From assembly GCA_937902425.1 (NCBI GenBank), contig CALFNB010000226.1, positions 1 to 33,698 on the forward strand: a stretch of DNA of 33,698 nt, written 5' to 3'. Each line of letters starts with the position of its first letter. The first letter of the stretch is position 1. The stretch comes from an uncultured Acetobacteraceae bacterium (GTDB lineage Bacteria; Pseudomonadota; Alphaproteobacteria; Acetobacterales; Acetobacteraceae). Below the pieces are notes generated by a model. The model did no database searches, was not told the DNA's origin, and saw only the letters and a list, made by a program, of their open reading frames with translations. Positions 7,560 through 32,389 of the stretch are shown here, piece by piece. A program made the translations under genes and the position numbers.

Positions 7560-8369
7560 TCAGCCGCTCACACCCCAGGCGATCGCATTGCGCAGCAACG
7601 TAATGAACGCACCGGACTCCCACGCGCCGTGAAACACGGGCGGCGTCTTGTCCGCGGGGTCATTCGCACGGCCCGCGCGGGACGCGGGATTGTGGCAATG
7701 ACCGAGAGCGAGGTACGTCACGCCGCCGTTGCCGATCTGCCGCGTATACCCGAGCACGCGCGTCTTACCGTCGGGAAGCAGCGATGTGTCCGAAGCATAC
7801 ACGGTCCCGATGCTGGGTGACACCGCGCCCGGACCATAATCCGCGGTCAGCAGGATCCGCGTGGACTCCGGGTGTTGCAGTTCGATGAAGTACGGCTCGT
7901 CCTCGACTTCGAATGACGTGCCAACTCCTTTGGTAAGCGCGTGATCGGAATCACTCACGTCGACGCGAAACTTACAGAGCGGGGGGTGAGTGAGAAAATA
8001 GCTGCCGAGGACGGCGTGGTGCTCGGTCTTGACGGTGCGGCGCTGGCGCACGCCCTCAACGCGCTCGGCTTTGCCGCCGCTGGTTCCGTGTAATCCCAGC
8101 CAGTGGCCGCCGGCTTCCATCCACTGCTGGATGGCGCGGGACTGCGCGGCGTCGGGATACGGACCGGCGACATAAGTGATCAGCAGCCGGGAGATCGGCA
8201 GCCATTTCTCAATGTCCGCGAAGTCGTTGCCGACCGAGGCGGGAACGTCCTGCTCGGCCAGCAGGCCCAACAGCCGCAGGCGGGCATAATCGTGGTCGTG
8301 GCCGGCACCGGAGCCGGGCGGAAAGCCGCCGGTGATGAGATGCGCTCGGCCGGGGTTCTTGTCAGTCAT
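7560..8369 (-). CDS. ThuA-like domain protein
   Basis: The 269-residue product has the ThuA-like (trehalose-utilisation) fold, a class I glutamine-amidotransferase-like domain. Recognisable features are the early HLITGGFPPGSGAGHDHDY segment, GGHWLGLHGTSGG near residues 86-98, and a closing LALGHCHNPAS plus ESGAFITLLRNAIAWG. Family members are often found with sugar or polyol metabolism genes, but biochemical roles are poorly defined and no sugar genes occur nearby. No signal peptide is visible, so it is probably cytoplasmic. It is transcribed toward the repeat element and away from the low-GC island. ATG at 8369 is the only good start. Confidence 0.88.
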   Translation of the reverse strand: MTDKNPGRAHLITGGFPPGSGAGHDHDYARLRLLGLLAEQDVPASVGNDFADIEKWLPISRLLITYVAGPYPDAAQSRAIQQWMEAGGHWLGLHGTSGGKAERVEGVRQRRTVKTEHHAVLGSYFLTHPPLCKFRVDVSDSDHALTKGVGTSFEVEDEPYFIELQHPESTRILLTADYGPGAVSPSIGTVYASDTSLLPDGKTRVLGYTRQIGNGGVTYLALGHCHNPASRAGRANDPADKTPPVFHGAWESGAFITLLRNAIAWGVSG

Positions 8370-8453
8370 TGGATCGCCTCGCTGGCTGTTCGACTTTCTT
8401 GGTGGCGAATGAGATTGACAAAATTGGCCGTCCTGTCAAATGGCGCGGTGGTA

Positions 8454-8478
8454 GATTGGTTACATATTACAACCAATC
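8454..8478. promoter_or_regulatory. 25-bp palindromic operator candidate
   Basis: GATTGGTT (8454-8461) and AACCAATC (8471-8478) are perfect 8-base inverted arms separated by nine bases. The size and symmetry suit a dimeric helix-turn-helix regulator. It sits in the gap between divergent genes; the regulator itself is not identified in the window. Confidence 0.45.
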
Positions 8479-8499
8479 GCCGGTTGCATCGGTGTCGAT

Positions 8500-8539
8500 C
8501 CGAGTACTCAACCGAAATGACCAATTTCGCGGTACTCGG
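8500..8539. repeat. Two-tier stem-loop
   Basis: Outer arms CCGAGTAC (8500-8507) and GTACTCGG (8532-8539) enclose inner arms CGAAAT (8513-8518) and ATTTCG (8524-8529) around a five-base loop. Both tiers are perfect. No T-tract follows, so it is unlikely to be an intrinsic terminator. It could be a second operator or an RNA structure. Confidence 0.5.
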
Positions 8540-8597
8540 CTGACGTACCGTTTGTGCGGCACTATCCGTGGCCTGGTTGGCAGCACGCAGGAACCTA

Positions 8598-8626
8598 TTG
8601 ACCTTTCGTGCGGTCTGTGCTGTAGG
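8598..8626 (+). promoter_or_regulatory. Sigma70-like promoter candidate for the island
   Basis: TTGACC at 8598-8603 is followed after 17 bases by TGTAGG at 8621-8626, and the outer-membrane protein start lies about 55 bases further on. The -35 is good but the -10 is weak. An AGGGGGT ribosome-binding site directly precedes the ATG at 8681. Confidence 0.35.
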
Positions 8627-8680
8627 CTGATATGAGCACGACTGCAACGACAGGGGTTCAACCTTGACTTAGGGGGTCAT

Positions 8681-9514
8681 ATGCGGGACATTGTTATCTT
8701 TCTCGCCGCCGTTACTGCTTTGGGTGGAACGTGCGTGGGCGGGCCGGTCTATGCGCAGGCGCGTATCCAAGAAGAGAATCTTGTTTACACCGATCCAACG
8801 ATGGCGCTTCCAGGACGATGGACAGTAGGTGCCAATGCCGAATTGTGGGGAGGAATAACACCTTGGGTGAGAACTCAGGATTCGACACAGCAGTGGAAGG
8901 GATGGCAGGCGGGGGGCAGTCTTTCCGTTGGTTACGATGCGTTTCAGTTACAGTTGACCGGCTTGTCGGGTAGCGCCACCGGTACCTCGAGTATGTCTAA
9001 CGGAGCGACCGTACATACACACTCAGGCATCACCGAAATCGAAATATTGGGAAGGTACGTATTTCCCTCTGCACAGTTCTGGGGGATCACGCCTTATGTC
9101 TTGGGTGGCTATGATTTTGTGCAAGTGCCGCAGAGCGACGCGGTGTTCGGAAATTTCTTCTACCCCGCTACTGGTAGCTCGCAGCGCAAATTGACGAACA
9201 CCTTTAATACGCTCTTCATCGGTGTCGGCGGTCTGTACGAATTCACGCAGAACGTTGGCCTTCGGTTTGATGTGGAAATAGGGCCCAGTTTCGGCGAATC
9301 CAAATACACAAACTTCCTTCCCTCCATGAAGTCCGATTTCTCAGGGACGCAATTTGGATTCATGAGCCATCTCACCGTCTATTGGAGGATTACCGACGAT
9401 ATAGTCGCACAGGTTGGATTGAAAGCTGCCGGTATTGAGGGTGGCGCTAATGGAGTGCAAGTCTGGGGCGCGGCTGGCGCATTTGGCAGCATTGGGTATG
9501 CCCATCGCTTTTAA
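8681..9514 (+). CDS. Outer-membrane beta-barrel protein
   Basis: The 277-residue product begins with a typical signal peptide: a short charged start, a hydrophobic core and an AxA-like VYA-QA cleavage site near residue 24. The rest is rich in alternating polar and aromatic segments with Gly/Tyr turns, and ends in Phe (GYAHRF), the C-terminal signature recognised by the BAM complex. It therefore most likely forms a beta-barrel in the outer membrane. No porin family is recognisable. Third-position GC is lower than in the flanking metabolic genes, suggesting acquisition. It is followed after 26 bases by the caspase gene, so the two are probably co-transcribed. The start is firm, with AGGGGGT just upstream. 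Confidence 0.85.
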   Translation: MRDIVIFLAAVTALGGTCVGGPVYAQARIQEENLVYTDPTMALPGRWTVGANAELWGGITPWVRTQDSTQQWKGWQAGGSLSVGYDAFQLQLTGLSGSATGTSSMSNGATVHTHSGITEIEILGRYVFPSAQFWGITPYVLGGYDFVQVPQSDAVFGNFFYPATGSSQRKLTNTFNTLFIGVGGLYEFTQNVGLRFDVEIGPSFGESKYTNFLPSMKSDFSGTQFGFMSHLTVYWRITDDIVAQVGLKAAGIEGGANGVQVWGAAGAFGSIGYAHRF

Positions 9515-9540
9515 GTATGCGCTCGGCGACAGGGACGACA

Positions 9541-11223
9541 ATGATTAAGCTGTTTGCTCAATTTCATCGTAGGCTGAAGCTGCGTCCGACGATCTGTTCA
9601 ACAAGGGCGCGCGAGGTCCTTTTCTCGCATGCTCGCCGCCCACTGTCGGCCGGTCGTGGGCCCGCATCATCGAATTTAGCTCTAGCTTGTCGCTGGGCCG
9701 GAGTCATTCTCCGGTATGCTGGTGTCTTGTGCGCATTCTCATTTGGCGGAGTGTCGGTTACGCGCGCCGATTCATTCGCGCTTATCGTTGGGGTCAGTCA
9801 ATACGCGGACAGTGAGATCAACCAACTCAGATTTGCCGATAATGATGCCAAGGAACTGGCTGAGTTCCTCCGACTATATTCGTACTACCCACGCGATTGC
9901 ATCACACTTCTATTGAATTCAGAGGCAACGAAACTTCGAATCTTGTCATCGTTGCAGGAACTCGAAAAGCGTTGTGGACCCAAGAACGGCGATCCAGGAG
10001 TCGCATTGGTATATTTCGCAGGACACGCTGCGGGCACAGCTGGCAGCGACCCGGATTTCCGGAAGGCGAACAGAAGTCAATCGCGGGAATTCTTGGTTCC
10101 GTATGACGCGCGTTTATCGGCCACCTACCTTCTTCCGGGTGGTGGTAGCGAGAATACAACATTCTTGAAGAAGGAGGAATTTGCTGCTCAGCTCGCCCGT
10201 TTGAAAGAGGCGAACATTGCAGTCGTTCTTGACAGCTGCCACAGCGGAATGCCCGATTTTCGAGGTCTCTTGCAGTTTTATACCGCCCAAGGACCGCAGT
10301 CCAGTGGTGGGGAAAGCAGACACATCGGACTTTTGGCGGCCAGTGGCGAATTGCAGGAATCGCTAGAATTTGCAGACTTACGGCATGGCGCTCTTTCCTT
10401 TGCAGTCCTTGAAGCGCTCCGGAAATTGCGATCACGAATGCCAGAGGGCAAACCATTTTACGTTGATTTGGAGACGCTTTACAAGACCGTTGGCACCGTG
10501 TTTGCCAGCCGGGAAGTACAGGGGCGCCGACTGTCGGACTGGCAGACTCCGGAGCGCAGCTACTTTCCCAATCAGGCCGATCTTGTAAAGGTCGCGGCCG
10601 TCACGGGAGCGTTCGAGCCCTCTACCGCGAGTGTTTCGGGTGGACCTCGGGCTTCGGGGACTGAGGCGCCGATGATTACAGCAATTACGCCACCAAGGTT
10701 CGGTGGCTCGCCATCAACTCCCGCTACTGCTCTGCTGGGAAAAGGCATACTTTACATCGCTGGTGCCATCCCGATCGGTGCTTATGTAGAGTTAGACGGA
10801 CAGATCATAGCGTGGCAGCCGGGTAAATCAATTGAAGCGACAGCAGGACGCCACATCATTGTAATTGGGGAATCCAGGTACGATTTTCGCGATGTAAGAG
10901 AAATTGAAATTAACAATGGCAGCCGCGTGACGATAACTGCGATCTTTCAGGGAACCCTTTCGATCCAGTCATTGCAAAAGGCGGATCCCAGCCTATTCGG
11001 CCCGGACCTAAGCATCATTCTCGACGGGAGTCCGCTGGGTGTTGGCAAGAATCTATCCTATACCGTCCCTGCGGGAACCCATTCACTTGCTGTAACCGTT
11101 TATGGCAGCCGAAAGACTGTTGATGTCTCAGTTAGACCACAATCACCTTTGACGGTCCGGTTTCTCACGCAGGCACTTCCGGGAGGATCGCCGTCGCGGC
11201 AAAGAGGACCTGTTCCCTACTAA
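9541..11223 (+). CDS. Exported caspase-family (C14) protease with PEGA-like C-terminus
   Basis: The 560-residue product has a long basic N-terminus, then one hydrophobic segment ending in SVTRA near residues 46-75, read as a signal or anchor. The caspase fold follows: FALIVGVSQY opening strand, catalytic His162 in YFAGHAAG and catalytic Cys233 in LDSCHSG. A low-complexity linker leads to two PEGA-like beta repeats at roughly 400-465 and 475-540 (GAYVELDGQ, AGRHIIVIG, SIILDGSPLG, AGTHSLAV). These suggest surface or envelope binding. Caspase-like proteases cleave after basic or acidic residues and in bacteria are linked to signalling and cell death. ATG 9541 has GACAGGGA upstream; ATG 9517 is in frame but abuts the preceding stop. 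Base composition matches the neighbouring barrel gene. Confidence 0.88.
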   Translation: MIKLFAQFHRRLKLRPTICSTRAREVLFSHARRPLSAGRGPASSNLALACRWAGVILRYAGVLCAFSFGGVSVTRADSFALIVGVSQYADSEINQLRFADNDAKELAEFLRLYSYYPRDCITLLLNSEATKLRILSSLQELEKRCGPKNGDPGVALVYFAGHAAGTAGSDPDFRKANRSQSREFLVPYDARLSATYLLPGGGSENTTFLKKEEFAAQLARLKEANIAVVLDSCHSGMPDFRGLLQFYTAQGPQSSGGESRHIGLLAASGELQESLEFADLRHGALSFAVLEALRKLRSRMPEGKPFYVDLETLYKTVGTVFASREVQGRRLSDWQTPERSYFPNQADLVKVAAVTGAFEPSTASVSGGPRASGTEAPMITAITPPRFGGSPSTPATALLGKGILYIAGAIPIGAYVELDGQIIAWQPGKSIEATAGRHIIVIGESRYDFRDVREIEINNGSRVTITAIFQGTLSIQSLQKADPSLFGPDLSIILDGSPLGVGKNLSYTVPAGTHSLAVTVYGSRKTVDVSVRPQSPLTVRFLTQALPGGSPSRQRGPVPY

Positions 11224-11224
11224 C

Positions 11225-11254
11225 CCAACGCCGTTGTGAACTCGACGGCGTTGG
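11225..11254 (+). terminator. Hairpin directly after the caspase gene
   Basis: CCAACGCCGT (11225-11234) pairs perfectly with ACGGCGTTGG (11245-11254) around a ten-base loop, starting two bases after the TAA stop. The strong 10-base stem suggests transcription termination or 3'-end protection, but there is no T-tract, so intrinsic termination is uncertain. Confidence 0.55.
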
Positions 11255-11462
11255 TGCACAATCGGGACGGGGCCCGAGGTTACCCCAGACCCGAGCTGTT
11301 ATGCGGCAGCGGGGGGCCGGGACCAGTGAAGGGTATTCTACCGCCCTCTGGAGGGAGTGCGCCAACGTCCCATTACACACTTTTCGGCGTGGTCATCTAG
11401 GGTGTGGACTTCTTTCATCGTTGCATGTACATATCAGCCCAAATCAGTAGGTAGAGGCACAT

Positions 11463-12056
11463 ATGGACCCGACCACTATCTGGTGCGGCTATGGGGCCCA
11501 ATTCGGCGGAACAATTGTCATTGGGATCGATTGCCTAGTCGGTACACTTTACAACGTCGGCGATCCGACGGACAAGGTCCGGTACTGTGAGGTGCAAAGC
11601 CAAGGCGTGACCATTGGCGCTGGGCTTGGAGGCGGCGTCGGCATCATGTTTCTGCTTGCGCTCGGTTTCGCCTCGCCGCAAGAACTCAACGGCTGGGCCA
11701 GCGTCGACGTCGATTTCGCATTCGATCTCGGCATTAAGGGACTCGGTAAGTACCTCGAGAGTCTCTACGAGGTGGGCAAGGCCGGCAAAATTATGAAATA
11801 CTGGGGCAAGGGCGTCACTTTTTTAGAAGACTACTCTAAGACTAAGGACTTCACATTCAACGCGATCAAGAATCGCGATCTCGTTGTAGACCCGCACAAA
11901 CAGCAATTTATTGCTTGGCCCATTCCGACGCCGATTCCAACCAGCCTCCAGGTTTCGCTTGGTAAGCGCGCCTCCGAGGTCGACGTCACGTCTTGGGGCA
12001 CCGTCGACCTGCGCAACGAACTACGGAAGCTTTCAGGGAAGACGGTCCCCACCTGA
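11463..12056 (+). CDS. Unrecognised Gly-rich protein in the low-GC island
   Basis: The 197-residue product has no family I can name. Residues about 50-70 form a hydrophobic Gly-rich stretch (GAGLGGGVGIMFLLALG) like a membrane-inserting or glycine-zipper segment, preceded by two cysteines (Cys8 and Cys24). The middle is amphipathic and Lys-rich, and the C-terminal 60 residues are mixed. There is no classical signal peptide. GTAGAGG at good spacing supports the ATG at 11463. It lies 239 bases after the caspase gene, beyond a hairpin, in the same direction and with similar composition, so it probably belongs to the same acquired island but may have its own promoter. A membrane-active effector is possible but is inference only. 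Confidence 0.65.
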   Translation: MDPTTIWCGYGAQFGGTIVIGIDCLVGTLYNVGDPTDKVRYCEVQSQGVTIGAGLGGGVGIMFLLALGFASPQELNGWASVDVDFAFDLGIKGLGKYLESLYEVGKAGKIMKYWGKGVTFLEDYSKTKDFTFNAIKNRDLVVDPHKQQFIAWPIPTPIPTSLQVSLGKRASEVDVTSWGTVDLRNELRKLSGKTVPT

Positions 12057-15792: not shown

Positions 15793-17115
15793 ATGCTTTC
15801 CGAAGCCGATAACGTCCTGCTGACCCGCACCGGCCGCGCGACACCGATGGGCGATCTGTTCCGCCGCTTCTGGCACCCCGTGCTGCTGAGCGCCGAACTG
15901 CCGGAACCCGACGGCGCGCCACTGCGCGTCACCGTCCTCGGCGAGGACCTGCGCGCGTTCCGGGCCACCGATGGCTCGGTCGGTCTCGTCTCCCCGCGCT
16001 GCCCGCACCGCGGCGCCGATCTCTTCTACGGCCGTAACGAGGAGGGCGGCATCCGCTGCGCCTATCACGGCTGGAAATTCGCCACCGGCGGACGCTGCCT
16101 CGCACTGCCCACCATGGACCCCGGACCAGCCCGCGAACGCGCCGAGCAAAATGTCAATCTCCTCGCGTATCCAACGCAAGAGGCCGGCGGCTTCATCTGG
16201 GCGTATCTCGGCCCGCGCCAGCATCGGCCGAAACTCCCGGAACTCGAGTTCCTCGCACTTCCCGCCGCGCACGTTTTCGTTTCGAAGAAGCTGCAACAAT
16301 GCAATTGGGCGCAGGCCTACGAAGGCGGCCTCGACACCGCGCACTTCTCATTCCTGCACATGACCGTGTCAGATGCCGCCGACGTCACGACGCGGCTGAT
16401 GACCAAGGTCTCGTCGAACACCGACACGGTGCGCTGGATGCGCGACGACGGCGCCCCGCGCTTCACTATCGCCGAGCATCCCGCCGGTCTCGTCCTCGGA
16501 GCCGCTCGGCGCGGCGATCCTGGGCAGAACTACTGGCGCATCAGCCAGTTCCTGATGCCCAATCACGGCCTCGCCCCCAATGCATTCCCGGGCGAGAACC
16601 ATCACGGTCAATGCTGGGTGCCGATCGACGACACCTCGTGCTGGATCCACTGCTACACCTGGAACCCCGAGCGTCCGCTGACCGAGGCTGAGTGCCACCG
16701 GTTCCGCTCCGGCTCCGGCGTGCATGCCGAGGTCGACACCCAGTACATCCCGATCCGCCGCCGCGAGAACGACTATCTCATCGACCGCGCGAAGCAAAAG
16801 ACCGAGACCTACACCGGGATCGAGGGTGTCTCGGAACAAGACGCCTGCATCCAGGACAGTCAGGGTCTCATCGCCGATCGCACGACCGAGCATCTCGGCC
16901 CGACCGACATGGGCGTGATCCGCTTCCGCCGCCTGATCCTGGAAGCGGTGCGGGCATTGGAGAACGGCGAACCACCGCGCGCCGTCGCGCATCCGGAAGC
17001 GTATCGAGTCCGCTCGGGCGGTGCTGTCGCGCCGGCCGATGTGCCGCTGGCGGAGGCGATGCGCGATCGTTTCGGTCACGAACACGGGGTCGTGCGGAGC
17101 GATCGTTTTTCGTAA
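15793..17115 (+). CDS. Rieske non-heme iron oxygenase, alpha subunit
   Basis: The 440-residue product has a Rieske 2Fe-2S site C70-x-H72 ... C89-x2-H92 (CPHRG, CAYHGW) and a mononuclear iron site in EGGLDTAHFSFLH with Asp181, His184 and His189. It resembles phthalate 4,5-dioxygenase / vanillate demethylase-type oxygenases that hydroxylate or demethylate aromatic and N-methyl substrates. No reductase partner is present in the window, so electrons must come from elsewhere or from an unlinked gene. It is placed between the DAO-type enzyme and the 2-oxo-acid/acetoin dehydrogenase genes, so it probably acts on the same substrate family. The start is the first ATG, 24 bases after the preceding stop. 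Confidence 0.9.
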   Translation: MLSEADNVLLTRTGRATPMGDLFRRFWHPVLLSAELPEPDGAPLRVTVLGEDLRAFRATDGSVGLVSPRCPHRGADLFYGRNEEGGIRCAYHGWKFATGGRCLALPTMDPGPARERAEQNVNLLAYPTQEAGGFIWAYLGPRQHRPKLPELEFLALPAAHVFVSKKLQQCNWAQAYEGGLDTAHFSFLHMTVSDAADVTTRLMTKVSSNTDTVRWMRDDGAPRFTIAEHPAGLVLGAARRGDPGQNYWRISQFLMPNHGLAPNAFPGENHHGQCWVPIDDTSCWIHCYTWNPERPLTEAECHRFRSGSGVHAEVDTQYIPIRRRENDYLIDRAKQKTETYTGIEGVSEQDACIQDSQGLIADRTTEHLGPTDMGVIRFRRLILEAVRALENGEPPRAVAHPEAYRVRSGGAVAPADVPLAEAMRDRFGHEHGVVRSDRFS

Positions 17116-17334
17116 TCGCGGACATCGCCTGGCGGCCCCTCCCATCACCACGTCATGGCAAAACCGAGGCGCGGCTGGAACGATCCGCGGAGGCTGTGGA
17201 AAGTGCGTCAGGCGCGGATCCTGTGCGAAACGCACGACAATATCCCTCCCCACGTTTGCCCACGCCCCGGAATGGGACCACACTGCCCGCCGAGCATCTT
17301 CGACCGTGCGACACGGCGAGAGGGAGAGAACGTC

Positions 17335-18303
17335 ATGCAATTGAACCGCGAGTCGCTTGTCAAGGCCTGGCGCGACATGGTCACCATCCGCCGCTTCGAG
17401 GAGCGCGTTCAGGAAGAGTTCTCCAAGGGCGGCATTCCTGGTTTCGTGCATCTCTACGCCGGCCAGGAAGCCTCGGCGGTCGGTGTCTGCGCGAACCTCG
17501 GGCCGCGCGACCACATCGCCAGCACCCATCGCGGGCATGGCCACAGTATCGCCAAAGGGTGCGACGTCACCGGCATGATGCTGGAACTGTTCGCCAAACA
17601 AGGCGGGCTGTGCGCCGGCAAGGGCGGCTCGATGCACATCGCCGACCTCGATCAGGGCATGCTGGGCGCCAACGGCATCGTCGGCGGCGGGCCGCCGCTG
17701 GTGGTGGGCGCCGCGCTGACCGCGAAGACATTGCAGTCAGGCAACGTCGCGGTGGCGTTTATCGGCGATGGCGCCTCCAATCAAGGCACCACGTTCGAGG
17801 CGATGAACCTGGCAGTGGTTCTGCGACTGCCGGCGATTTTCGTGTTCGAGAACAACGGCTACGGCGAATACACCGGCGCCGCCTACGCGGTCGGCGGCCA
17901 CGACATCGCCGGCCGCGCCGCGGGCTTCGGGATGCCCGCCACCAAGTGCGACGGCGACGACTTCTTCGCGGTCAACGAAGCGGCGCGCGAGGCGGTGGAA
18001 CGCGCCCGCGCCGGCGGCGGGCCGAGCGCGATCGAGGTCGCGACCTGCCGCTTCTACGGCCACCATTCCGGCGACGCCCAACTCTACCGCGGCAAGGACG
18101 AAGTGCGGCGGCTGCGCGAGGACCACGATTGCCTGAAGCATTTCCGGCGCCGGGTGACCGAAGCCGGACTGCTGGAAACCCACGAACTGGACAGCGTGGA
18201 CGCCGAGGTGGCGACGCTGATCGATCAGGCGGTGGCCGCCGCCCAGGCCGCGCCGTCGCCCGACGCCTCGGCGCTGCTGACCGACGTCTACGTGTCCTAC
18301 TGA
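17335..18303 (+). CDS. TPP-dependent dehydrogenase E1 alpha (acetoin dehydrogenase-like)
   Basis: The 322-residue product has the E1 alpha fold with the thiamine-diphosphate motif beginning GDG at 144-146 and ending in NN at 173-174. The RRFEERV, HRGHGH and KGGSMHI elements are typical of acetoin dehydrogenase AcoA and pyruvate dehydrogenase E1 alpha. ATG 17335 has AGGGAGAG upstream; the track's 60 extra residues have no family counterpart. It lies 219 bases after the Rieske gene, a gap with no supported gene, and is followed within 12 bases by E1 beta. It should decarboxylate or cleave a 2-oxo acid or acetoin and transfer the acyl group to the lipoyl E2 next door. Which of the two substrates applies cannot be decided from sequence alone. 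Confidence 0.9.
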   Translation: MQLNRESLVKAWRDMVTIRRFEERVQEEFSKGGIPGFVHLYAGQEASAVGVCANLGPRDHIASTHRGHGHSIAKGCDVTGMMLELFAKQGGLCAGKGGSMHIADLDQGMLGANGIVGGGPPLVVGAALTAKTLQSGNVAVAFIGDGASNQGTTFEAMNLAVVLRLPAIFVFENNGYGEYTGAAYAVGGHDIAGRAAGFGMPATKCDGDDFFAVNEAAREAVERARAGGGPSAIEVATCRFYGHHSGDAQLYRGKDEVRRLREDHDCLKHFRRRVTEAGLLETHELDSVDAEVATLIDQAVAAAQAAPSPDASALLTDVYVSY

Positions 18304-18315
18304 GGGAGCCGCGTC

Positions 18316-19329
18316 ATGACCCAGAAAACGATCCGTCAGGCGTTGCATGAGGCGCTGGTGCATGAGATGCGCCGCGACCCGCGTGTGGTGGTGATCGGCG
18401 AGGACGTCTCGGGCGGCGCCGGCACCGCGGGCGGGCGCGATGCGGCGGGCGGCGTGCTCGGCGTCACCAAGGGCCTGATCGGCGAGTTCGGTGAGGCAAG
18501 GGTGATCGACACCCCGATCACCGAGTCCGCGATCATGGGCGCCGCCGCCGGTGCCGCGGTGACCGGGTTGCGGCCCGTGGCGGAACTGATGTTCTCCGAT
18601 TTCCTCGGGGTTTGTTTCGATCAGATCTTCAACCAGGCGGCGAAGTTTCGTTACATGTTCGGCGGCAAGGCGCGCACGCCGCTGGTGATCCGCACCATGA
18701 TCGGTGCCGGCCGCAGTGCCGCCGCGCAACACTCGCAAAGCCCCTATCACATTTTCACCAGCGTTCCCGGGCTTAAAGTCGTGGTGCCGTCCAACGCCTA
18801 CGATGCCAAGGGGTTGCTGATCCAGGCGATCCGCGACGACGACCCGGTGGTGTTCTGCGAACACAAGCTGATGTACGACCTTAAATGCGAGGTGCCGGAC
18901 GAGGCCTATACGATTCCATTCGGTGAAGCGAACGTTGTTCGTGACGGCGACGATGTCACCATCGTCGCGCTCTCCCGAATGGTGCACTATGCCAGCGAAG
19001 CGGCGGAGACGCTGGCCAAGGAAGGGATCGAGTGCGAACTGATCGATCCGCGCACCACATCGCCGCTCGACGAGGACACGATCCTGGACAGCGTGACCCG
19101 TACCGGGCGGCTGGTCATCGTGGATGAGGCGACGCCGCGCTGTAGCGTGGCGACCGACATCGCCGCGCTGGTCGCGGACAAAGCATTTGGCGCGCTGAAG
19201 GCACCGATCCGCCGCGTCACCGCGCCGCACACGCCGGTGCCGTTCGCTCCTGGGCTGGAGAAACTGTATATTCCTGACCCGGATCGAATCGCCGCCGCGG
19301 TCCGCGCGGTGCACGAGTACCGCAGATGA
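18316..19329 (+). CDS. TPP-dependent dehydrogenase E1 beta (acetoin dehydrogenase-like)
   Basis: The 337-residue product has the transketolase-like pyrimidine-binding domain (VVVIGEDVSGG, DTPITESAIMG, ELMFSDF) and the C-terminal transketolase domain (VTIVALSRMVHYA, IDPRTTSPLDEDTI, VDEATPRCSVATDIA). It pairs with the E1 alpha upstream to form the alpha2beta2 decarboxylase. A GAGGGAG site directly precedes the ATG. Its stop overlaps the E2 start in ATGA, which indicates translational coupling. Length matches AcoB/PdhB-type subunits. No unusual substitution is visible. Confidence 0.93.
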   Translation: MTQKTIRQALHEALVHEMRRDPRVVVIGEDVSGGAGTAGGRDAAGGVLGVTKGLIGEFGEARVIDTPITESAIMGAAAGAAVTGLRPVAELMFSDFLGVCFDQIFNQAAKFRYMFGGKARTPLVIRTMIGAGRSAAAQHSQSPYHIFTSVPGLKVVVPSNAYDAKGLLIQAIRDDDPVVFCEHKLMYDLKCEVPDEAYTIPFGEANVVRDGDDVTIVALSRMVHYASEAAETLAKEGIECELIDPRTTSPLDEDTILDSVTRTGRLVIVDEATPRCSVATDIAALVADKAFGALKAPIRRVTAPHTPVPFAPGLEKLYIPDPDRIAAAVRAVHEYRR

Positions 19330-20432
19330 CCATCACCGCGATCACCATGCCCAAGTGGGGTCTGACCATGACCGAGGGCAAGGTCGTGGCATGGCTGAAG
19401 CCGCAGGGCGCCGCGTTCGCTTCGGGCGAGGAACTGTTGGAAATCGAAACCAGCAAGATCACCAATGTGGTGGAGGCGGAATCTCCCGGCACGCTGCTTC
19501 GCATCGTCGCACCGGAGGGCAGCACGCTCCCCATTGGTGCGTTGCTCGCGGTGGTCGCGCCGGAAACCACGCCGGCGGCGGAAATCGACAGGTTTGTCGC
19601 CGGCTTCGTCGTGCCTGAACCAGCCGCGGACGCATCCGCCGAAACCGATGCGCCGGCGCCGCGCGACATCGAGGCCGCCGGTCAACGTCTGCGCTATCTC
19701 GAACTCGGCTCCGGCGGTGGCGTCCCGGTGCTGCTGCTGCATGGTTTCGGCGCCGATCTGAACAGCTGGATGTTCACCCAGCCCGCGCTGTCCGATGGCC
19801 GCCGAACGATCGCGCTCGACCTGCCGGGTCACGGCGGCTCGGCGAAGGATGTTGGCCGCGGCGATGTCGATGCGCTGACTGACGCCGTTGAGGCGGCGCT
19901 GCGCGTGCTGGACATCGACCGTGTGCATCTGGTCGGCCACTCGATGGGTGGCGCGGTGGCCGCGGCATTGGCGGCGCGCCAGCCGGACCGGGTGGCGACA
20001 TTGACACTCATCGCCTCGGCCGGCCTGGGGCCCGAGATCAACGCGACCTTCATCGATGGGTTCGTGCGCGCGGCGCGGCGGCGAGACGTGGAGGCGGTGC
20101 TGCGGTTGCTGGTGCACGACCCCGCTCTGGTCAGCCGCGCGATGATCGAGGACGTGCTGCGCTACAAACGTCTCGACGGCGTGGCCGCGGCGCTGGAAAC
20201 CATCGCCGGCGCCTGGTTCCCGGATGGCCGGCAAACGTACGATCTGGTCACCGCGCTGCCAATGCCGGTGCAACTGATCTGGGGACGCGACGATCGGATC
20301 GTTCCGGTTGCGCACGCCGAGGCGCTGGCCGCGCGCCTGCCGGTGCATATTCTGGCGGATGCCGGCCATCTGCCGCACATGGAGAAGTCCGGCGCGGTGA
20401 ATGCGTTGATCCGGCGGTTCATCGAGGGTTGA
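19326..20432 (+). CDS. Lipoyl-alpha/beta-hydrolase E2 component (AcoC-like)
   Basis: The 368-residue product begins with a lipoyl domain (residues 1-80) carrying the attachment lysine Lys44 in EIETSKITNVVEA. An Ala/Pro-rich linker leads at about 115 to an alpha/beta-hydrolase domain with LLLHGFGAD, nucleophile Ser206 in LVGHSMGG, DDRIVP and a final AGHLPHME. This is the arrangement of AcoC of acetoin dehydrogenase systems, where the usual acyltransferase catalytic domain is replaced by a hydrolase-like one. It supports an acetoin-type assignment for the whole E1/E2 set. No dihydrolipoamide dehydrogenase (E3) gene follows, so a shared E3 must be supplied from elsewhere. Confidence 0.92.
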   Translation: MTITAITMPKWGLTMTEGKVVAWLKPQGAAFASGEELLEIETSKITNVVEAESPGTLLRIVAPEGSTLPIGALLAVVAPETTPAAEIDRFVAGFVVPEPAADASAETDAPAPRDIEAAGQRLRYLELGSGGGVPVLLLHGFGADLNSWMFTQPALSDGRRTIALDLPGHGGSAKDVGRGDVDALTDAVEAALRVLDIDRVHLVGHSMGGAVAAALAARQPDRVATLTLIASAGLGPEINATFIDGFVRAARRRDVEAVLRLLVHDPALVSRAMIEDVLRYKRLDGVAAALETIAGAWFPDGRQTYDLVTALPMPVQLIWGRDDRIVPVAHAEALAARLPVHILADAGHLPHMEKSGAVNALIRRFIEG

Positions 20433-27149: not shown

Positions 27150-27773
27150 TCAGCGCCTGCTCGCGGACTGGCGCGGCAGCATTCTTTCAAGCACGTCATC
27201 ATCCAAAACATAACGGTGAAACAGCACGGCCGCGATGTGCAAACCGACGGTCGCCAATATAATCCAACCGATAATGCCATGTACACGTTGCAACCTGGCT
27301 GCCTGAGCGAGGCCGGCCGGGTCGAGCGCGGGCATGTCAAAATGGTTGAAAGCGCTGTCGCCCGTGGCCCACAGCAGTAACATGCCTTCGAGCACCATCG
27401 CCGCCAGCAGCACGTAGAGACCCACATGCGTGATCCGGCTGGCCAGCCCCATCGCGCCGGCATCGGCCGGCGGCGGTGGTTCGCCGAACGACAGGCGCCA
27501 GACGAAGCGCACGCCCCCGACCATACCCAGCACGGTACCCAGGAGGATGTGCACCGACCGCGCGTCCGACCGCGCTGAGCCCGCCGGGAACCAATCGAGG
27601 GTCTCGGCGCCGATCCACAGCGCCGCCACCAGTGCTGCTACCAGCCAATGCAAAACAATCGAGGTCCAGTCGTAACGTTGCTGATTTGGCTCGTTAGGCG
27701 CCACGGCCTGACTCTCCTGAAAGGTTACGGGGGCGAACTGATGGCTTTCCCCGGAAGCGACGTATGCGGTCAT
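27150..27773 (-). CDS. Cytochrome b561-family membrane protein
   Basis: The 207-residue product has four membrane helices and His residues placed as in bacterial cytochrome b561 (CybB/YceJ type): His42 (VLHW), His75 (SVHILLG), His116 (RITHVGLY), His165 (RVHGIIGW) and His179 (VGLHIAAV). Heme b binding and electron transfer from quinol or to a periplasmic acceptor are expected. The N-terminal 35 residues are soluble and variable. GCGAGG precedes the ATG, 15 bases after the previous stop. It is the last gene of a three-gene membrane operon. It could serve as electron donor or acceptor for the two unknown membrane proteins. Confidence 0.9.
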   Translation of the reverse strand: MTAYVASGESHQFAPVTFQESQAVAPNEPNQQRYDWTSIVLHWLVAALVAALWIGAETLDWFPAGSARSDARSVHILLGTVLGMVGGVRFVWRLSFGEPPPPADAGAMGLASRITHVGLYVLLAAMVLEGMLLLWATGDSAFNHFDMPALDPAGLAQAARLQRVHGIIGWIILATVGLHIAAVLFHRYVLDDDVLERMLPRQSASRR

Positions 27774-27788
27774 CAGCCTCGCGGCAGG

Positions 27789-28157
27789 TCAATGCAGCAG
27801 CCAAATGAAGGGTGGGAAGGTCAACAGAAATCCCGCCGCCAGCATCGCATATGCCACCACATTGATCCGCCTGAGCCGCAAGTTACGCGTACGCCAGCGT
27901 ACCGCGAGAAGCAGCCAGGCCAACAGCCAGACGCCGACCGCGCCGGTGCTGACACCGGAAAGCGGACCGCTCGGCCGCCAGATGTTGAAGGTGGTGCCCA
28001 CAACGGGCCACAGGTCACCAGCGGTGGTAAAGAGGCCGAGTGCGAGCGAGCCGATTCCCGTCGCCAGGATCGCCGCCGCGCCCAGGCCGTTCGGCAGGGA
28101 TCCCAGTACATCGTCTGGGTTCGCGGTCCCGGCGGTGGATTTTGTCTCTCTTTCCAC
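27789..28157 (-). CDS. Small membrane protein of unknown family
   Basis: The 122-residue product has three hydrophobic helices (about 24-46, 71-86 and 98-120) after a polar N-terminal tail. It has no histidine in the membrane segments, so it is unlikely to bind heme itself. The start is a GTG one base after the stop of the preceding gene, indicating tight translational coupling. It is placed between a His-rich membrane protein and a cytochrome b561-like protein, so a structural subunit role is plausible. I recognise no named family. Confidence 0.75.
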   Translation of the reverse strand: MERETKSTAGTANPDDVLGSLPNGLGAAAILATGIGSLALGLFTTAGDLWPVVGTTFNIWRPSGPLSGVSTGAVGVWLLAWLLLAVRWRTRNLRLRRINVVAYAMLAAGFLLTFPPFIWLLH

Positions 28158-28158
28158 G

Positions 28159-28725
28159 CTACTTGTGTCCCATTAATACAATCTCGGGGCCGCCGCTGGT
28201 CGGAGCGTGGACGTTGATCAGCGCGCCGAATACACCAGAGACAAGGGTTGCCAGGAAGGCTGCCGCGGTGAAGCCCAGAATCGCGTTGCGCATCTGTCGG
28301 TGGCGCGCGATGTTCGGGCCGTAGGTAATGAACACGACGGCCACCATGGTCATCGCTATGGGGGTGAACCACGAAACGTGCTCTTTCCATTCCATGCCGA
28401 ATTCGTGCCACCCGGCGGTCATCGGGTTGGACAGCAGCAAGAGGCGCGGATACCTCGTGAGGTCAGTTGTGCCGGCTGGCGCCACGGCCCGGTACCAGGG
28501 ATAAACGATGTAAGTACCGGACAGCACGGTAATCCAGGCCAGGGCGGACATGCTGAGCAGGTAAAAGCGGAAAAGCTTGTAATGAGGCGAGGAAGCCGGC
28601 CAGATTCCACCGCTCGCCGCGGTCGCATAGATCACCCCGATGGCACCTGAGAAGGCGAGCATGAACAGTGCTCCAAACCCCATGCCATGCAGGAGGGTAA
28701 TCAGATCACGAACGCTGATGACCAT
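28159..28725 (-). CDS. Five-helix membrane protein with conserved-looking histidines
   Basis: The 188-residue product has about five hydrophobic helices. Histidines lie near membrane boundaries: His13 (LLHGMGFGALF), His48, His107 and His116 (EWKEHVSWF), and His173. The pattern suggests heme or metal binding, but I cannot assign a family. ATG 28725 has GGGAGG seven bases upstream; the track's GTG at 28734 falls inside that site and is rejected. It leads an operon with a small membrane protein and a cytochrome b561-like protein. A membrane redox or respiratory-accessory complex is the natural inference. Confidence 0.8.
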   Translation of the reverse strand: MVISVRDLITLLHGMGFGALFMLAFSGAIGVIYATAASGGIWPASSPHYKLFRFYLLSMSALAWITVLSGTYIVYPWYRAVAPAGTTDLTRYPRLLLLSNPMTAGWHEFGMEWKEHVSWFTPIAMTMVAVVFITYGPNIARHRQMRNAILGFTAAAFLATLVSGVFGALINVHAPTSGGPEIVLMGHK

Positions 28726-29712: not shown

Positions 29713-29797
29713 CAACCAGACGGGCGGCGGGTCCACGATGGACCGGGCCAGACCAACCGACTATCAGAGGCCAACCCGATCGAGTCGCCGTGCCCCT

Positions 29798-32389
29798 ATG
29801 CTGAATCGCCTGCTCGCAGGCTTGGTTGATACCAGTCGCCGCCATGCTCTGCTCGTCTTGTTCGCCGGATCCCTGCTGGCGGTACTCGCGTGTGGCGTGG
29901 CGGCGACGCGCCTTGGGGTCAGCACCGACACCGACCAGATGTTCTCCGAAACGTTGCCCTGGCGCCGCAACGCGATCGAGATGAACAAGGACTTTCCCCA
30001 GTTCCGCGATCTGCTGGTCGCCGTGATCGACGCCAAGGAACCGGAACAGGCCGACACGACCGCCGACGCGTTGGCCGAGGCCCTGAGCCTCGATCAGGTA
30101 CATTTTCGCTCGGTTCGGCGTCCCGATACCTCACCGTATTTCGAGAACAACGGACTGCTGTTCCTCGATTTGCCGCAACTCACCGCGATCATGGACCGGA
30201 CGATCGACGCGCAGCCGTTTCTTGGGCAACTGGTGGCTGATCCAACCGCGCGCGGCCTGTTCTCGGCGCTGGCGCTTCTGGGAGTCGGTGTGACCCAGGC
30301 CGGCACCGATCTGACGCCTTATCAGGACGCGATTCTGGCGTTTCACGACGTGCTGGCCGACGCGGTCGCCGGCAAGCCGCGCCCGCTGTCCTGGCAGCAA
30401 CTGTTGGGGGCGGGCCTGTCGGACCTCGCCGGCAAGTACCGCTTCGTGCTGATCCAGCCGCGACAGAATTTCGGTGCGCTGGAGCCCGGCGGAGCGGCGA
30501 CGGCCGTGGTGCGCCATGCCATCAGCGAACTGGAATTCGTGAAAAGCGGTGACGCGCATGTGCGCATCACCGGTCAGGTGGCGCTGGCGGACGAGGAGTT
30601 CGCGACGGTCGCGCAGGGAGCGGTGGAAGGATTGATCGGCAGCGTGGTGCTGATCACGTTGTGGCTGTACCTGGCGGTACGGACGTGGCGGCTGATCGTG
30701 CCCATCCTGCTGACGTTGGGGCTGGGGCTGCTGCTGACCGTGTTGTTCGCGGCGGTGGCGGTCGGGACATTGAACCTCGTCTCGGTCGGGTTTGGCGTGA
30801 TGTTCGTGGGAATCGCCGTTGATTTCGCGATTCAGTTCGCGGTTCGCTACCGCGAATACCGCCACGTGATGGGCGATCCGGTACTGGGCTTGCGGCAAAC
30901 CGCGGCGCGGGCCGGCATGCAAATTCTCTGCGCCTCGCTGGCGACGGCGGCCGGCTTCCTCGCGTTCGTGCCGACCCCGTTTTCGGGTGTCGCCGAGCTT
31001 GGCCTGATCGCGGGCGGCGGCATGTTGATCGCCTTCATCTGCACGCTGACGGTCCTGCCCGCCGCCATCACCCTCTTCAATCCGCGCGACGGCGCCGCCG
31101 AGGTCGGCTTCTCCTGGGCTGCTCCGCTGGACACCTGGATCCAGAGCCATCACCGCTGGCTGCTGGCGGTCTTCGCCGCGTTGGTTGGCCTCGCGCTCGC
31201 GGTCGCGCCGCGGATGACGTTCGACTCCAATCCGCTGCACACCAAGAACCCGAACACCGAAGCAATGCGCACCTTGCGCGACCTGATCGATAACCCGCTG
31301 ACGGACCCGTACACCATCGACATCGTGGCGCCGGATGTTGGCACCGCGGATACTCTTGCCGAGCAACTGAAGCGGTTGCCGACGGTGTCGCAGGTGCGCG
31401 ACATCGACAGTTTCGTGCCGCGGGACCAGGCCAAAAAGCTCGCGGTGATCGCCGATGCGCGGACCATTCTGGCGCCGACGCTGTCGGCCGCGCCTCCGGT
31501 CGCGCCGATCACCGCGGATCAGGTGCGGATGGCGGCGCGTGTGGCACTGGGTCAGATCGATCCGGCGCTGCCGAAGCTGCCGAAGGATCATCCGCTCGCC
31601 GCCGTCGACGGCGATCTTCGTAAGTTGAGCGATGCGCCCGATGCCGTGGCGATGGCGGCGAACGACGCTTTGACGCGGTTTTTGCCGATGCAGCTGGATC
31701 ATCTGCGGGCGTCCATGACCGCCGGTAAGGTGACCCGCGCGGACATTCCCTCCGACATCGCGCGCGACTGGATATTGCCCGATGGCCGCGCGCGTTTGCA
31801 GGTACTGGGGAAGCCGGATTTGCGCGACGCCGGCGGCCTGGCGGAGTTCACCAGGGAGGTGATCCATCTCGCGCCCGACGCCGGCGGGCCCGCGGTCACC
31901 ATCGCCGCCACCAGCGCCACCATCGTGAATGCGTTCCGCACCGCGGCGGTGAGTGCATTGCTGGCGATCCTGGTGATCCTGTCGCTGATATTGCGGCGGC
32001 CGCTCGACGTCATTCTGGTGGCGGCGCCGCTGTTGCTGTCGGCGCTGCTGACGCTCTACGTCGCCGTGCTGCTGGGATTGGCGCTGAACTTCGCCAACAT
32101 CATCGCGCTGCCGTTGCTTCTGGGCGTGGGGGTGTCGTTCAACGTCTATTTCATCATGAACTGGCGCGCCGGCCGCACCGGGCCGCTCGGGTCCGCGACG
32201 GCGCGGGCGGTGCTGTTCTCGGCGCTGACCACCGGCACCGCGTTCGGCTCGCTGGCGCTGTCCGCCCACCCCGGTACCGCGAGCATGGGGGAGTTGCTTC
32301 TGATCAGCCTGGGCTGCACGCTCATCGCGAGTTTGGTATTCGTGCCGTCGCTGCTGGCGGCTCTGGGCCCGCCGCGGCCAGGAACCTGA
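29798..32389 (+). CDS. hpnN: Hopanoid-associated RND transporter
   Basis: The 863-residue product begins MLNRLLAGLVDTSRRHALLVL and continues with NTD-like STDTDQMFSETLPWRRNAI...FPQFRDLLVAVIDA, which match the opening of HpnN proteins. It has two sets of about six helices, centred near 250-450 and 700-860, separated by large periplasmic domains, as in the MMPL/RND fold. HpnN moves hopanoids from the inner to the outer membrane. The track start at 29738 adds 20 residues not expected for the family, although that ATG has the better ribosome-binding sequence; the start at 29798 is therefore a homology choice. No other hopanoid genes (shc, hpnC/D/E) occur in the window, so hpnN is separated from the usual cluster or is at its edge. 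Confidence 0.92.
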   Translation: MLNRLLAGLVDTSRRHALLVLFAGSLLAVLACGVAATRLGVSTDTDQMFSETLPWRRNAIEMNKDFPQFRDLLVAVIDAKEPEQADTTADALAEALSLDQVHFRSVRRPDTSPYFENNGLLFLDLPQLTAIMDRTIDAQPFLGQLVADPTARGLFSALALLGVGVTQAGTDLTPYQDAILAFHDVLADAVAGKPRPLSWQQLLGAGLSDLAGKYRFVLIQPRQNFGALEPGGAATAVVRHAISELEFVKSGDAHVRITGQVALADEEFATVAQGAVEGLIGSVVLITLWLYLAVRTWRLIVPILLTLGLGLLLTVLFAAVAVGTLNLVSVGFGVMFVGIAVDFAIQFAVRYREYRHVMGDPVLGLRQTAARAGMQILCASLATAAGFLAFVPTPFSGVAELGLIAGGGMLIAFICTLTVLPAAITLFNPRDGAAEVGFSWAAPLDTWIQSHHRWLLAVFAALVGLALAVAPRMTFDSNPLHTKNPNTEAMRTLRDLIDNPLTDPYTIDIVAPDVGTADTLAEQLKRLPTVSQVRDIDSFVPRDQAKKLAVIADARTILAPTLSAAPPVAPITADQVRMAARVALGQIDPALPKLPKDHPLAAVDGDLRKLSDAPDAVAMAANDALTRFLPMQLDHLRASMTAGKVTRADIPSDIARDWILPDGRARLQVLGKPDLRDAGGLAEFTREVIHLAPDAGGPAVTIAATSATIVNAFRTAAVSALLAILVILSLILRRPLDVILVAAPLLLSALLTLYVAVLLGLALNFANIIALPLLLGVGVSFNVYFIMNWRAGRTGPLGSATARAVLFSALTTGTAFGSLALSAHPGTASMGELLLISLGCTLIASLVFVPSLLAALGPPRPGT

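Follow-up and report, generated by a model that had tools for sequence, protein, structure and literature searches.

A conserved pair of unnamed membrane proteins in operon with a CybB-type cytochrome b561

Three genes for small membrane proteins stand close together on the minus strand of a contig from an uncultured Acetobacteraceae bacterium (CALFNB010000226.1), of which we analyzed 33,698 nucleotides, here referred to as the window. The last gene, C, resembles cytochrome b561, and the records of the proteins of the first two, A and B, are annotated merely as “hypothetical protein”. An earlier note, made from the letters alone, had proposed a three-gene membrane redox module. The locus raises two questions: which of these genes form a conserved unit, and what such a unit may do. 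In fact, the operon is real and unusual. The A-B pair is without relatives of known function, and C is a known type of protein, a CybB-type b561.

The operon and its proteins

The genes form a tight series in the order A, B, C (Table 1). The A-B gap is 1 base (from the end of the A stop at 28159 to the start of B at 28157) and the B-C gap is 15 bases (27789 to 27773); the coordinates confirm the packing and spacing described earlier. The start of A is probably its ATG, rather than the GTG of the listed open reading frame, because GGGAGGT lies immediately 5' of this ATG and close relatives of A begin at the matching position in sequence comparison. Residue numbers of A nevertheless follow the 191-aa reading. 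A scan for promoters and terminators gave no signal above chance. The HpnN gene (TIGR03480, 925 bits) lies upstream of the operon and is divergent from it, with an alpha/beta hydrolase gene in between. Elsewhere in the window, reading the translations by eye revealed a Rieske-oxygenase-like gene and, after it, genes for E1 alpha, E1 beta and lipoyl E2, a set that looks like the 2-oxoacid or acetoin dehydrogenase type.

Table 1. Positions of the operon, of other genes in the window and of two further A-B loci.
Feature	Sequence	Position	Strand	Description
Gene A	window	28159..28725	-	four-helix membrane protein; 188 aa from ATG 28725 (191 aa from GTG 28734)
Gene B	window	27789..28157	-	three-helix membrane protein, 122 aa, GTG start
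Gene C	window	27150..27773	-	CybB-type cytochrome b561, 207 aa
HpnN gene	window	29738-32389	+	hopanoid transporter
Rieske-oxygenase-like, E1 alpha, E1 beta, lipoyl E2 genes	window	15793-20432	+	read by eye
Second A-B pair	locus L021, same genome	~8024-11913	-	cytochrome c type
Plasmid A-B pair	locus L119, NZ_CP092854.1	7007-8006		Burkholderia contaminans plasmid pB1701

The AlphaFold2 model of A, built with 77 sequences, shows four long helices (8–41, 50–82, 104–144 and 146–173) and has moderate confidence (mean pLDDT 75, pTM 0.65). A had been described as a five-helix protein with several boundary histidines. The model holds four transmembrane helices instead, and its short loop helix at 95–102 may be the one that was counted as fifth. 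As for the histidines, the family alignment including the window copy separates them into two sets: H16 and H110 are invariant (77/77) and H119 is kept in 74/77, with Tyr in the remaining three, whereas H51, H145, H176 and H190 vary among the 77 sequences. Moreover, R82, E115, W116, K117 and R149 are invariant in all 77, and the best-conserved stretch covers residues 109–119, where the majority residue accounts for 91% on average. Loop 3 is rich in K and R (mean 3.3 basic vs 0.4 acidic residues across the family), so the positive-inside rule would place H16, H110 and H119 near the periplasmic side.

For B, the AlphaFold2 model (pLDDT 82) agrees with the three helices proposed before, at 24–49, 65–88 and 95–113. 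Its conserved residues are G, P, S and W, and the family alignment contains no conserved histidine.

Neither protein has a match in Pfam, NCBIfam or the PDB sequences. Foldseek against the PDB returned no fold match for A at E 0.001 and no significant one for B, only chance helical bundles in both cases, and a literature search found no description of the pair. The idea that these proteins fall outside named families thus holds for A and B and fails for C. Profile and fold comparison recognised no heme, metal or quinone site in A. We also rejected A as a b561-type cytochrome (hhalign probability <1% against the b561 alignment) and as a NarI-type cytochrome, since the single member of the 77 that matches PF02665, with E 0.006, was taken as chance. 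In addition, the three conserved histidines of A lie near one membrane face, whereas the heme ladder of b561 is two-sided.

Distribution of A-B and change of partner

Scanning one genome per species, we found 307 places that encode A and kept the best 80 of the 307, which resemble the window copy most, so that the counts of gene settings given below lean towards its relatives. These 80 come from Acetobacteraceae and Caulobacteraceae-type MAGs, Acidobacteriaceae, Burkholderiaceae, other Betaproteobacteria and Mesorhizobium. At 94 of 97 places, some of which come from a contig counted twice, B stands directly 3' of A, and the three exceptions are contig ends; among the 83 distinct loci it adjoins A downstream in all but two, both again contig ends. 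The conserved unit is therefore the A-B pair, and the pairing is obligate. The family is sparse: A turns up in 11 of the 397 genomes searched from the order and 1 of the 385 from the class, and B in 1 of the 399 from the phylum. One copy is carried by a Burkholderia contaminans plasmid (Table 1) and adjoins a Tn3 transposase gene, which points to horizontal movement of the pair. A chromate transporter gene, mercury resistance genes and a PadR gene are found near this copy. Two further pairs (L070 and L081) are on contigs assigned to Candidatus Yonathbacteria and Kaiserbacteria, which are probably misbinned proteobacterial contigs.

The neighbours of A-B fall into four settings. In one, mainly in Acetobacteraceae/Caulobacteraceae-type genomes, genes for a cytochrome c (20 of the 83 loci), a hemerythrin-like protein (20) and a barrel with CxxCH (18) stand nearby, and ten loci also have a multicopper oxidase in the vicinity. 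In another, b561 comes right after B with tight or overlapping spacing; this is seen in five of the 83 loci, namely the window and L037–L040, and none of these five has the cytochrome c, hemerythrin-like or CxxCH barrel gene beside A-B. The third comprises 26 loci, mainly from Acidobacteriaceae, with a barrel that lacks the heme motif and matches PF13557 weakly; no cytochrome is near A-B there. The last consists of CusF, cupredoxin and P-type ATPase genes in L109 and L113, where the CusF and P-type ATPase genes lie on either side of A-B in the same orientation; in L069, genes for CusF and a multicopper oxidase are beside the pair. Stand-alone pairs, of which there are many, also belong to this last setting. 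For many pairs, namely those of Mesorhizobium, Paraburkholderia and most Acidobacteriaceae, no redox gene lies within reach of A-B. Redox neighbours do recur in unrelated lineages (L077, L097). By eye, a PadR-type regulator gene adjoins the barrel-A-B set in seven acidobacterial loci (L075, L083, L086, L089, L094, L100 and L103).

With b561 in only 5/83 loci, the strict three-gene module is rejected, though the operon itself stands. The earlier note had counted against its own reading the occurrence of A and B independently of b561 together with unconserved histidines; A-B does occur without b561, but H16, H110 and H119 are conserved, so this reading is not refuted. The pair is more than chance: across 76 relatives that span several phyla, A shares 47–79% identity with the window copy, and B always follows A where the contig allows. 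The b561 link is real, though confined to one small clade.

In a tree of the 83 A proteins, made by a quick method with no bootstrap, the five A proteins linked to b561 fall into a single group (SH-aLRT 94) inside the cytochrome c type. The C tree likewise unites the linked b561s as a single clade (100/98), and both trees agree on the main split, L039/L040 against the rest of the linked set. The simplest account is that b561 joined A-B once, in a copy now devoid of the cytochrome c, hemerythrin-like and barrel genes. The window's genome retains one pair of each kind. Its second pair, whose A is 72% identical to that of the window, belongs to a row of genes that also encodes a hemerythrin-like protein, a Cyc2-like CxxCH barrel and two monoheme cytochromes c, possibly an extracellular electron-transfer cluster in Rhodopila relatives.

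Conserved residues of the linked b561

The b561-like nature of C was confirmed by PF01292 (91.8 bits vs the cut-off of 30.1) and by E. coli CybB (PDB 5oc0), with which C aligns near end-to-end over 174 residues (E 1e-16). H42, H75, H165 and H179 of C correspond to H13, H45, H137 and H151 of CybB, which we take to be the heme ligands, and are kept in 5/5 A-B-linked loci. Equally retained in 5/5 are R93, H116, H179, H186 and D192, the counterparts of the CybB quinone site R63/H87/H151/H158/D164 (PMC11869295). The cationic superoxide antenna on the periplasmic side of CybB, R30/R35/R38/R108/K134 (PMC11869295), is mostly gone: in the small sample of five linked sequences, positions 30, 35 and 108 are never basic, position 134 is basic in two, and R38 is the only antenna residue kept in all.

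For control, we aligned 16 further b561s, taken from this genome and related ones. Position 30 is basic in none of them (0/16). The three nearest unlinked b561s in the tree, including one from the window's own genome (L135; the others are L160 and L164), retain R35, R38 and R108, so the loss of R35 and R108 marks the linked clade against its nearest relatives in this small sample. Loss of most antenna residues also weakens the candidate of C as a plain superoxide oxidase.

Possible role and known systems

Because A-B shares an operon with a cytochrome b561 in one small branch that includes the window, the arrangement with a quinone-reducing partner suggests a small electron-transfer device. 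The reading we prefer, with a probability of roughly 0.4, has A-B as a redox or metal pair that faces the periplasm and whose electron partner changed once, from the cytochrome c set to a b561-quinone route. A and B would form a small inner-membrane complex with its conserved face towards the periplasm, and A would bind a redox cofactor or metal (heme b, copper or iron) via H16, H110 and mostly also H119. The complex would accept electrons from a periplasmic donor and pass them to a partner, which in most Acetobacteraceae-type loci would be the periplasmic class I cytochrome c, beside the hemerythrin-like protein and the Cyc2-like outer-membrane cytochrome-barrel; in the window's clade this set would have been replaced once by C, which could carry electrons through two b hemes to the quinone site on the cytoplasmic side. 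The quinol- or heme-dependent complex of the earlier note is thus plausible, given the heme and quinone residues of C and the cytochrome c elsewhere; for A and B themselves we infer redox activity. This reading is supported by the obligate pairing, the invariant histidines, the cytochrome c and b561 neighbours, and antenna loss in C with the quinone site kept. It is weakened by the cofactor searches of A, the Tyr at H119 in three members and the one-sided histidines, as well as by the many pairs without a redox neighbour, the five-sequence antenna sample and the moderate model of A. A bolder version appears doubtful: A-B as an undescribed inner-membrane unit that moves periplasmic, perhaps iron- or copper-derived, electrons to cytochrome c or, via b561, directly to the quinone pool. 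Such a unit would be a minimal periplasm-to-quinone oxidoreductase with no sequence relation to known families.

The copper genes around some pairs fit a different role, which we consider rather unlikely, in which A-B handles copper or another metal on the periplasmic side: H16, H110, H119 and E115 would bind an ion that is sensed, oxidised or moved, and b561 and multicopper oxidase would deal with the redox chemistry or the resulting stress. The CusF loci (L069, L109 and L113), the ten loci with multicopper oxidase, and the chromate and mercury resistance genes around the plasmid copy favour it. However, copper genes are near a minority of the 83 loci and at none of the b561 loci, metal transport needs neither a cytochrome c nor a b561 partner, and profile searches revealed no signature of a known metal transporter or chaperone in either protein. 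To about the same low degree one may credit a non-redox envelope pair, active for example in the assembly or energising of outer-membrane barrels, with the b561 operon as a passenger arrangement in one clade. The heme-less barrel loci, the solitary pairs and the lack of a recognisable cofactor motif in A-B agree with this idea, but invariant H, E, K and W on one face are unusual for a purely structural protein, and redox neighbours recur in unrelated lineages; besides, the co-inheritance of C with A in at least five loci at tight or overlapping spacing argues for a working link.

It is still less probable, indeed improbable, that C is an ordinary superoxide:quinone oxidoreductase and A-B its accessories in scavenging periplasmic superoxide. 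The almost whole-length alignment with CybB and the complete heme-position and quinone-site residues would suit such an enzyme, but the antenna is reduced to R38 in all five copies plus a basic position 134 in two, and most A-B pairs are without any b561.

What makes A-B of interest is that this unnamed membrane family is strictly paired and widely scattered, keeps invariant histidines and repeatedly stands beside periplasmic redox proteins. For many bacteria, the route of electrons from Cyc2-like outer-membrane proteins to the inner membrane has yet to be settled. With a Cyc2-like protein as its neighbour in one clade and a quinone-reducing b561 in the adjoining one, A-B is a small, testable candidate for this outer-to-inner-membrane step.

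Cyc2 is a fused cytochrome-porin (PMC8406198) and is reported from Acetobacteraceae (PMC10715153). The putative barrels of the sister loci resemble it in their length of about 450 aa, their N-terminal CxxCH and their position next to a monoheme cytochrome c; the intact ones have one N-terminal CxxCH and 430–472 aa, exceeding the 365 aa expected of Cyc2. We rejected them as canonical Cyc2, because the strict motif AxPxFAR[QK][TY] upstream of CxxCH (PMC8406198) is present in 0/18 called barrels; with R and F relaxed it appears in 13/18, and some of the others are truncated gene calls. The window's locus differs from Cyc2 systems, as such barrel and cytochrome c genes are missing from it. C belongs with E. 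coli CybB to the PF01292 family and retains the heme-position histidines and quinone-site residues, but R30, R35 and R108 are missing in all five linked copies; CybB is described as a single-protein actor (PMC11869295), whereas C sits in an operon with A-B. In this respect the locus is similar to the lcoA-bcnA operon, where a b561 is joined with a YceI-type lipocalin (PMC9113575): both are small operons of a b561 and a dedicated partner, which in lcoA-bcnA acts on the periplasmic side, but in A-B-C two integral membrane proteins without relation to lipocalins take the partner's place.
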